Below, piece after piece: positions 61,004 to 63,976 of a DNA stretch of 64,000 bases. Both the position numbers and the translations under genes were made by a program. The notes below the pieces were generated by a model that saw only the letters and a program-made list of their open reading frames with translations, did not search any database and was not told the DNA's origin. Position 1 is the first letter of the stretch. The number at the start of each line of letters is the position of its first letter. This DNA comes from Acidimicrobiales bacterium (GTDB lineage: Bacteria; Actinomycetota; Acidimicrobiia; Acidimicrobiales; Bog-793). The stretch spans positions 20,075-84,074 of the forward strand of contig DATLTN010000021.1 in the NCBI GenBank assembly GCA_035533595.1, given 5' to 3'.

Positions 61004-61924
61004 TCAGGGGTGGCGGATGAGGGCGTCGAGGCCCATCGCGACGAAGAGCACCGTGAGGTAGGTGATCGAGTAGCCGAACATCCCCATCGCCGCCTTCGGG
61101 GTCGCGTCCTGACGGAGCGAGAGCGCCTTCCAGAAGAAGGCGCCCCCCGCGACGACCGCCACGGCCCCGTAGAGCCAGCCCATGTGGGCGACCGGGACGA
61201 GGGCGAGCGAGCAGAGCCAGAGCGCGAGGGTGTAGCCGCAGATCTGGCGGACGACCGAGGGCAGCTCGGCGACGACGGGGAGCATCGGCACGTTGGCGCT
61301 CGCGTAGTCCTCGCGGTAGCGCACGGCGAGCGCCCAGAAGTGCGGCGGCGTCCACAAGAAGATGATCCCGAACATCACCACCGGCGCGAGCGCGAGGTGG
61401 TCGGTGACGGCGCTCCAGCCGACGAGCACCGGCATCGCCCCCGCCGCGCCCCCGATCACGATGTTCTGGCGAGAAGAGCGCTTCAGCCACATCGTGTAGA
61501 CGAGGACGTAGAAGGCGGTCGCGCCGAGCGCGAGCACCCCCGAGAGGACGTTCACCGTCGTCGCGAACACGACGAAGGCGCAGAGCTCGAGCGCGATCGC
61601 GAACACGAGCGCGGCACGCGGCGTCACTTCGCCGGTGACGAGGGGGCGCCGCTTGGTGCGGTTCATCACCGCGTCGATGTCGCGGTCGTAGACCATGTTC
61701 ATCGCGTTCGCGCCGCCCGCCGCGAGCGTGCCGCCGACGAGGGTCTCGAGGACGAGGCGGGCGGAGGGGACGCGCACCGCGGCGACGAACATCGTCGGCA
61801 CGGTGGTGATGAGCAGGAGCTCGATGATGCGCGGCTTGGTCAGCGCGACGTAGGCACGCACCTTCGCGCCGAGGTCGACGCGCGTCGCCATCCGGCCGAC
61901 CGGCCCGAGGGCGTTGGCGTCCAC
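61004..61924 (-). CDS. ctaB: Protoheme IX farnesyltransferase
   Basis: This membrane prenyltransferase of up to 306 residues converts heme b to heme o for terminal oxidases. It has the allylic diphosphate motif NAMNMVYDRDIDAVM followed by RTKRRPLVTGE, a second acidic loop region after LWTPPHFWALA, and about nine hydrophobic segments. The GTG at 61924 gives the longest form; an ATG at 61891 would also keep the whole domain. It starts 9 bp after the MurT-GatD stop and is probably co-transcribed with it. Confidence 0.92.
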   Translation of the reverse strand: MDANALGPVGRMATRVDLGAKVRAYVALTKPRIIELLLITTVPTMFVAAVRVPSARLVLETLVGGTLAAGGANAMNMVYDRDIDAVMNRTKRRPLVTGEVTPRAALVFAIALELCAFVVFATTVNVLSGVLALGATAFYVLVYTMWLKRSSRQNIVIGGAAGAMPVLVGWSAVTDHLALAPVVMFGIIFLWTPPHFWALAVRYREDYASANVPMLPVVAELPSVVRQICGYTLALWLCSLALVPVAHMGWLYGAVAVVAGGAFFWKALSLRQDATPKAAMGMFGYSITYLTVLFVAMGLDALIRHP

Positions 61925-61933
61925 GACCCGAGA

Positions 61934-63976
61934 CTACCGCCCGTGCGCGCGGCCACTTTTCTGCGCGCCGCGGCCCCGCCGCCCGAGCGCCGCGAAGCGC
62001 TCGGCGCGCAGCGCCTCCTCCTCGGCGTCGTCGAGGGGTGCGAGCACCCCACCGGTCGCGAGGGCGAGGAGGGCGTCGGCGAGCGCCGGGTTGCGCGCCA
62101 GGGCGGGTCCGTGCAGATAGCTGCCGAGCACCTTGTCCTGCCACGCGCCGTCCACGCCGGAGGCGCCGTTGCCGGTCCCGTGCCCGACGACGCCGAGCGG
62201 CCGCACCCCTTCGCCGAGGGTCGTGTGGCCGGCGTGGTTCTCGAAGCCGGTGAGGCGCACGGCCACCCCGCCGAGGTCGGCCTCGGTGGCGAGCTCGCCG
62301 ACGGCGCGGGTGGTGCCGCGCTCGGTGACGACGTCGAGGAGGCCGACGCCGGTGACCGGAGCGCCGTCCGCGCCGGGGAAGGAGTGCCCAAGGATCTGGA
62401 AGCCCGCACAGACGGCGAAGACCGCTGCGCCCGCCTCGACCGCGCTCGCGAGCGCCCCGGAGCGCAACGCTGCGGCGGCCTGGGCCTGCGGGCCGTCCTC
62501 GCCGCCGCCGAGGAGGTAGAGCTCGCCACGCGGCAGCGGCTCCCCGGCGGGGGCGAGGAGCAGCTCGACGTCGAGGCCCCGCCACAGCGCCCGGTCGGCG
62601 AGCACCTGGCCGTTCCCGCCGTCCCCGTAGGTGCCGAGCAGCTCGGGATGGACGACCACCACCCGGACGGCGGAATCGCGCGTCGCACCGTGCGCGACGA
62701 CGGGCCGCGCCGCGACGAGCGGCGCCGACGCGGCGGCGCGCCGCGATGGACCGGCGAGCAGCCGGCGCAGCTCCTGGAAGGCCGTGTAGTTGCCGACGTA
62801 GTCGGCGCGCCCGGCGCCGAGGGCGGCGAGCGCGGCGGCCTGGTCGTGCAGCGTGCGGTGCGCGACGCCGGCGTGCAGCAGGCGGAGCGCGAGGTCGCGC
62901 GCCCGCTCCCCAGTCGCCACCACTTCGCGCCCGGCGAGCAGCTCGAAGGGGACGTCGTACAGCCAGGACGGGTCGTGGCCGTCGGCGTCGCGGGCGTTGA
63001 TGCCGATCACGACCGGGCCCTCCCCGGCGGTGAGCAGCTCGAGCAGCTCGGCCCATCCGGCGGGGTTCTTCGCGAGCAGCAGCCGGAGGTCGACGTCGCC
63101 TGAGCGGTGACGGGCGAAGCGTCCGGCGACCTCCTCGACGCCGCCGATCGCCGCGAGCGCGTCGTCGAGCGCGACGCCGAGGCACTCCGCGGCGACCGCG
63201 GCGACGGCCGCGTTGGCCTGGTTGAAGCGGCCCGGGAGGGCGACCGCGAGGCGATGGGTGCTCCCGTCCGAGAGCACGAGCGCGTCGTCGACGAGCGTCG
63301 CGTACGGCTCGGGGCGCCTGAAGCCGCAGGCACAGCTCCACGAGCCGTCCTCGGCGAAGACCACGGTGCCGCCGCAGTGCGGGCAGTGGCGGGCGTCGAG
63401 CCGCCAGCGACCCCCGACCGAGACGAAGCGCCTCTTCGCCGCGACCTCGGCGGCGAAGACGACGAGCGGGTCGTCGGCGTTCGCCACCACGAGCGCCTCG
63501 GAGCCGGCGAGCGCCTCCCGCCAGCGCCCGGCGAGCATGCGCACCTCGTTCGTGCGGTCGAGCTGGTCACGGCTCAGGTTGAGGAGCGCGATCACCTGTG
63601 GGGCGAGTGCCGCGGCGACCGCAGGCAGGTGGCCCTCGTCGACCTCGAGCGCGGCGAGGGGGGCGGGGTGGCTCGCGAGCGCACTCACGATGCCGGCGGC
63701 CATGTTCGCCCCCGCGAGCGAGGAGGCGACCACAGCGCTGCCGCCGAGCGCCTCGACGAGGAGGCGCGTCGTCGTCGTCTTGCCGTTGGTGCCGCTCACG
63801 AGGGCGATCCGCCGGCCGGCGCCGAGGCGGGAGAGGAGGCGGGGCTCGAGCGCGAGCCCGAGGTGGCCGCCGACGGTCGATCCGCCGCCGATCCCGGCGC
63901 GTCGGGAGAGCGCGCCCCCGAGCAGCACCGCGCGGCGCGCCGCGGCGGCGCGCCGTGGAAGACGGGCGGCCGGCAC
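61934..63976 (-). CDS. Fused MurT-GatD lipid II isoglutaminyl synthase
   Basis: This single 680-residue frame contains both subunits of the enzyme that amidates D-glutamate in lipid II. Residues 1 to about 407 are MurT: Mur-ligase P-loop SGTNGKTTTT (Lys66), SRDQLDRTNEVRML, a zinc ribbon with Cys198, Cys201, Cys215 and Cys217, and the DUF1727 part (AKNPAGWAELLELL, ADGHDPSWLYD). After a linker of about 30 residues, residues 437-650 are GatD: VVHPELLGTYGDGGNG, nucleophile Cys523 in VCAGFQILG and His622 in SYLHGP. In staphylococci these are separate proteins of similar combined length. The GTG at 63976 fits the MurT start. Confidence 0.9.
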   Translation of the reverse strand: MPAARLPRRAAAARRAVLLGGALSRRAGIGGGSTVGGHLGLALEPRLLSRLGAGRRIALVSGTNGKTTTTRLLVEALGGSAVVASSLAGANMAAGIVSALASHPAPLAALEVDEGHLPAVAAALAPQVIALLNLSRDQLDRTNEVRMLAGRWREALAGSEALVVANADDPLVVFAAEVAAKRRFVSVGGRWRLDARHCPHCGGTVVFAEDGSWSCACGFRRPEPYATLVDDALVLSDGSTHRLAVALPGRFNQANAAVAAVAAECLGVALDDALAAIGGVEEVAGRFARHRSGDVDLRLLLAKNPAGWAELLELLTAGEGPVVIGINARDADGHDPSWLYDVPFELLAGREVVATGERARDLALRLLHAGVAHRTLHDQAAALAALGAGRADYVGNYTAFQELRRLLAGPSRRAAASAPLVAARPVVAHGATRDSAVRVVVVHPELLGTYGDGGNGQVLADRALWRGLDVELLLAPAGEPLPRGELYLLGGGEDGPQAQAAAALRSGALASAVEAGAAVFAVCAGFQILGHSFPGADGAPVTGVGLLDVVTERGTTRAVGELATEADLGGVAVRLTGFENHAGHTTLGEGVRPLGVVGHGTGNGASGVDGAWQDKVLGSYLHGPALARNPALADALLALATGGVLAPLDDAEEEALRAERFAALGRRGRGAQKSGRAHGR

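Follow-up and report, generated by a model that had tools for sequence, protein, structure and literature searches.

The window analysed here is a stretch of 64,000 nucleotides from the genome of an Acidimicrobiales bacterium, and close to its high end it carries, on the reverse strand, a gene in which murT and gatD are joined. The frame runs from a GTG at 63976 to a stop at 61934 and encodes 680 amino acids with no internal stop, which bears out the claim of an earlier note on this DNA that MurT and GatD share one uninterrupted frame. By analogy with the known two-protein enzymes, the product is very probably a single-chain lipid II isoglutaminyl synthase, made of a MurT-type Mur ligase and a GatD-type glutaminase. 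The gene and its parts, all on the reverse strand, are as follows:

61934..63976, reverse strand: fused murT-gatD gene, a single open frame of 680 codons plus stop; the GTG start is not certain
62753..63976, reverse strand: MurT half (residues 1-408), with the Mur ligase middle domain, a zinc ribbon and the MurT C-terminal domain, from Pfam, solved relatives and fold
63776..63793, reverse strand: P-loop GTNGKT, residues 62-67, with Lys66, which is present in 64 of 64 fused loci
63326..63385, reverse strand: Cys4 zinc ribbon (Cys198, Cys201, Cys215, Cys217), from the alignment
62972..62974, reverse strand: Asp335, read from the alignment as the equivalent of Staphylococcus aureus MurT Asp349 and a candidate third triad residue from the MurT half
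62669..62752, reverse strand: linker, residues 409-436, rich in Ala, Arg and Pro, from the alignment; the shortest among 45 fused sequences compared
61937..62668, reverse strand: GatD half, residues 437-680, a class I glutamine amidotransferase, from Pfam, solved relatives and fold
62621..62629, reverse strand: in the GatD half, Tyr450 and Asp452, identified through a TYGD motif read from the sequence
62408..62410, reverse strand: Cys523, the glutaminase nucleophile, from alignments
62111..62113, reverse strand: His622 in an HGP motif, of the glutaminase triad, from alignments

The high end of the window (64000) is the end of contig C21 (84,074 bases), and 24 bases remain upstream of the GTG; the promoter region of the gene falls off the contig end. 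The N-terminus of the protein aligns with that of its relatives. The junction of MurT and GatD lies 1.2 kilobases inside the contig and is supported by independent genomes.

Each half is recognized by Pfam above the gathering cut-offs: Mur_ligase_M at residues 60-263 (40.6 bits, cut-off 24), MurT_C at 301-387 (66.1 bits, cut-off 25) and GATase_3 at 438-629 (101.7 bits, cut-off 27). In a search of solved structures, S. aureus MurT aligns to residues 23-373 (E 9.5e-39) and S. aureus GatD to residues 445-651 (E 1.3e-25). These are the best solved relatives, and their lengths (437 residues for MurT, 251 and 243 for GatD) agree with the remark in the earlier note that the fused protein is as long as the two separate proteins together. 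The predicted fold of each half, compared half by half, likewise matches MurT or GatD. The halves resemble in sequence and predicted fold the MurT/GatD enzymes of S. aureus, Streptococcus pneumoniae and Streptococcus pyogenes (PDB 6gs2, 6h5e, 7q8e, 6fqb, 9sq9, 9sqj), and the P-loop, zinc ribbon, Cys/His and Asp equivalents of those enzymes are kept. The known enzymes, however, are heterodimers of two proteins, whereas the window protein is one chain with a 28-residue linker.

The linker had been placed at about residues 408-436 and described as Ala/Arg-rich, and it is indeed found at about residues 409-436. Counted between residues 404 and 440 of the window protein, which serve as anchors, the span ranges from 35 to 108 residues across the 45 fused sequences, with the fewest, 35, in the window, and one linker (locus L158) carries a tandem PEARPVPVA-type repeat. 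Because linkers of such different length and sequence go with two conserved active sites, the linker is probably a simple tether only. Long insertions, sometimes with tandem repeats, are also seen at one site of the GatD half, near window residues 567-572, in L161, L152 and P0071.

The catalytic residues are as the earlier note had numbered them (Lys66, Cys523 and His622), and its four zinc cysteines are those listed above. All four zinc-ribbon cysteines are present in 60 of the 64 fused loci; in the remaining 4 the third is replaced by Ser. The same Ser at the third position (Cys215, 63332-63334) recurs in several proteins of alignment A1, which comprises 37 of the 120 listed fused proteins discussed below, and there the other three cysteines are kept. 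According to the text available from PMC6113224, the Cys4 zinc ribbon insertion occurs in a subset of MurT/GatD members; the same text describes the HGP motif and proposes a triad of MurT Asp349 with GatD Cys94 and His189, shared between the two proteins. The triad shown in the available part of PMC6085368 is instead GatD Asp32 with Cys107 and His206. Tyr450 and Asp452 of the window protein would correspond in S. pneumoniae GatD to the gate residue Tyr30 and the alternative triad residue Asp32, so that both candidates for the third triad residue, Asp335 and Asp452, are present. Should the shared-triad proposal of PMC6113224 hold, all three triad residues would lie on a single chain in the fused protein. 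Asp335 is conserved among the aligned fused proteins and loci, and Glu111 aligns with S. aureus Glu108. The Asp-Cys-His-Asp set is intact in 54 of the 64 fused loci, 4 others are cut short there, and 6 belong to a branch with a dead glutaminase (see below). The window sequence therefore holds the marks of the broad family, namely a P-loop ligase with MurT_C, a Cys/His glutaminase, a third triad residue and a zinc ribbon.

The fusion is shared by close relatives. The whole fusion is found in 17 of the 35 genomes of the window's family, where frames were checked; 27 of the 35 give some match, comprising these 17, one fusion spread over two contigs (G248), one GatD fragment (G257) and 8 weak matches of Mur-ligase type only, and 8 give no match. 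A split murT/gatD pair was found in 0 of the 35. In a related family (f23), 13 of 17 genomes have the whole fusion and another (G429) is fused up to the contig end; G591, G563 and G510 were left unclassified, and no split pair was seen among the 17 genomes with frames checked. Classified loci in a sample of 397 genomes of the order add fusions in G304 (family f78), in G334, G406 and G427 (f75), in G316 (f90) and in G502 (f16), the last being the single fusion in its family, where 32 genomes were searched and 23 others are split. Among proteins, at least 120 of 7022 matches carry all three domains in one chain, with lengths of 629-834 residues (best 120 listed), and the named organisms among these 120 are Acidimicrobiales, Acidimicrobiaceae or Actinomycetota metagenome-assembled genomes. 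The database search for single-chain proteins in related genomes that the earlier note had proposed is thereby answered, and a unique event is ruled out, since all 120 listed matches are fused. A trait of the whole class is ruled out as well: among the listed matches from 247 genomes of the class, only G000 and G244 are fused, a call that rests on the sizes of the frames and, in the first 30 loci, on a script as well. Some apparent candidates, including G212, G460 and G763, were rejected as fusions; each gives a single long match yet has a stop between the halves.

Farther away, two genes are the usual arrangement. The 80 named loci, mostly from Actinomycetota, comprise 78 split pairs, a single fusion (L127, from Atopobiaceae) and one stretch that carries MurT but no GatD; these loci are a sample among the matches listed that may omit records near the window's genome, and phyla other than Actinomycetota are represented by a few of them. 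Close relatives in which a stop codon and a second start codon separate the domains would, by the earlier note, have refuted the fusion; this arrangement was seen in none of the 35 family genomes, yet it is the rule in distant relatives. The two-protein enzymes of Streptomyces and Mycobacterium, for example, are 43-49% identical to the MurT half and 46-52% identical to the GatD half, and their genes are adjacent and in the same order as the window halves, but a stop followed by a second start separates them. The GatD frame begins before the MurT stop in 63 of the 78 named split loci, and so a small frame change could join the halves.

Fusions are also found in Coriobacteria. With the L127 protein as query, a phylum sample of 246 genomes gave 12 loci, 5 of them fused (G678, G737, G668, G766, G657) and 7 split. 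With the GatD part of L127, the best 120 of 1354 proteins all have MurT_C and GATase_3, and 114 of the 120 have all three domains; the names among those listed are Thermophilibacter, Olsenella, Paratractidigestivibacter and Collinsella. The fused proteins of these genera have the domain order and catalytic residues of the window protein, and some of them are named 'Multifunctional fusion protein' by UniRef. In six rows of alignment A2 they share 33-36% identity with the window protein, and they lie in a separate part of the tree; for these reasons they were most likely joined independently of the window's clade.

The trees of MurT plus GatD are consistent with this picture. In a tree of 100 rows, the 30 fused Acidimicrobiia rows form one clade with a Shimodaira-Hasegawa approximate likelihood ratio test (SH-aLRT) support of 99, and three changes between the split and fused states are counted. 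In a tree of 143 rows (48 fused), extended with Coriobacteria and more Acidimicrobiia, the same 30 rows again form one clade (99) and nine changes are counted, of which well-supported branches force at least seven; the changes may be joins or separations. The placement of the long rows L209 and L210 on the larger tree is unsure. Each tree comes from a quick search, and SH-aLRT is the one measure of support. The smaller uses 100 of 139 rows, with L101, L135, L152 and L161 dropped as short; the larger uses 143 of 214 classified rows, with L152, L161, L154, L211, L101, L135, L212 and L219 left out by name and the other omitted rows being for the most part additional split loci with names, loci from f16 and intact Collinsella loci resembling ones that were kept. 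As read from the sequences, one Acidimicrobiia clade has the fusion fixed, and further fusions turn up in other lineages, the clear separate cases being G502 (f16) and Coriobacteria.

The joining of MurT and GatD is already known in print, and what the present analysis adds is its scale and the pattern of its recurrence. The earlier note knew of no described natural fusion, and the idea that there is none did not hold: the part of PMC3267633 (2012) that was available states that in Actinobacteria the murT and gatD open reading frames are, rarely, merged into one, and the legend of its Figure S1 gives three merged cases, which are unnamed in that text. These merged frames match the window in architecture and phylum (a one-frame murT-gatD in an actinobacterium), but they are three rare cases, in contrast to the fixed Acidimicrobiia clade and the recurrence elsewhere described here. 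The available passages of PMC6085368, PMC11915815, PMC6113224, PMC3266927, PMC8210147 and PMC10484409 do not mention a fusion. The extent of the fusion, its recurrence and the branch with a dead glutaminase were not found in the literature searched, which consisted mostly of titles, abstract openings and passages.

The substrate, the reaction, the path of the ammonia and the uncleaved state of the chain can be proposed from the two-protein enzymes. The GatD half would hydrolyse glutamine by Cys523 and His622, aided by Asp335 from the MurT half or by its own Asp452, and the ammonia would cross a built-in interface to the MurT half. There, adenosine triphosphate would activate (phosphorylate) the D-glutamate carboxyl of lipid II, which would then be amidated to D-isoglutamine. 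In a fused chain the halves would be held at 1:1 and the shared active site would stay together; such stoichiometry and the transfer of ammonia in cis, both put forward in the earlier note, are reasonable expectations.

Several observations weigh against so specific an assignment. The NCBIfam equivalogs NF045635 (isoglutsynth_MurT) and NF045636 (GatD) give 113.5 and 92.7 bits, and their cut-offs of 800 and 400 are not reached; membership in these narrow families is not claimed, and the window protein is, by its sequence, a fused form of the broad MurT/GatD family. The true start of the 680-residue protein is not fixed and its N-terminus is uncertain, because the contig ends so close to the GTG. 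The MurT/GatD pair is also missing from 16 of the 35 family genomes (G252-G256, G262, G173, G266, G269-G271, G273, G274, G276, G278 and G279), some of which are at 90% completeness or more, and on this account some members of the family seem to have lost the gene or to do without it.

Three other explanations can be set beside a natural single-chain MurT-GatD enzyme. The stop and start of two normal genes might have been lost by an error of assembly or sequencing, as the location at a contig end and the predominance of two genes among distant relatives (the 78 of 80 named loci among the matches listed) might suggest. An open fusion is nonetheless present in the 17 family genomes and the 13 of f23, neither family showing a split pair, and in all 120 listed proteins; independent genomes with differing linkers refute an error, the probability of which is negligible. 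The fused product might otherwise be a precursor that is cut in the linker after translation to give the usual heterodimer. The length and variability of the linkers would suit such processing, and a title cited in PMC10484409 tells of a mycobacterial fused molybdopterin synthase that needs cleavage for activity. The linker showed no obvious conserved site for cleavage, though no motif search was made, and the fused state is kept across the 30-row clade, which speaks against a precursor yet is compatible with cleavage; on balance, a precursor is improbable.

Slightly more doubtful still is the idea that the chain amidates something other than the D-glutamate of lipid II, such as another carboxyl of peptidoglycan or of a cofactor. 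Sequence alone cannot give the substrate, the equivalog scores fall short of their cut-offs, and the loss of glutaminase residues in the Coriobacteriaceae branch indicates that the pair can change. Among solved structures, both halves nevertheless score best against MurT/GatD enzymes, and the Asp335 motif and zinc ribbon are retained, all of which favours lipid II isoglutaminyl synthase.

In that Coriobacteriaceae branch (Collinsella type), the GatD homologue is without the catalytic Cys and His in 15 of 15 loci (L215:1939-4128, L216, L217 and L223-L234, by residue check in the alignment) and in 32 of 32 proteins. The dead partner occurs both fused to MurT and as a separate protein, its GatD fold is predicted to be kept, and a genome search of the 15 dead-type genomes found no match of the intact kind. 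In the dead-type pairs L229, L230, L231, L233 and L234, the usual gene order is inverted, with the GatD-like gene upstream of MurT. The available text of PMC6085368 reports that S. aureus GatD is required even when ammonia is supplied directly, and the dead-GatD branch bears on this need and allows a direct test of whether GatD has a role other than catalysis. A tentative and rather speculative reading is that joining has been repeatedly favoured in Actinomycetota because the glutaminase site needs a residue of its MurT partner and a single chain would complete the triad by itself; the dead GatD of Collinsella would then be an obligate scaffold, with MurT using free ammonia or another donor.

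MurT/GatD has been studied as an antibacterial target, and the fused form, in which nature provides the enzyme as one chain, would be useful for structural and assay work, as the halves come 1:1 without co-expression.

The downstream neighbour of the fused gene is not part of the enzyme:

61004..61924, reverse strand: open frame, which we take to be ctaB-like (heme O synthase)

A ctaB-like gene lies near the fused locus in 15 of the 19 family genomes that have a locus, the window included; it was not found in the flanks examined of G267, G268, G247 and G277.
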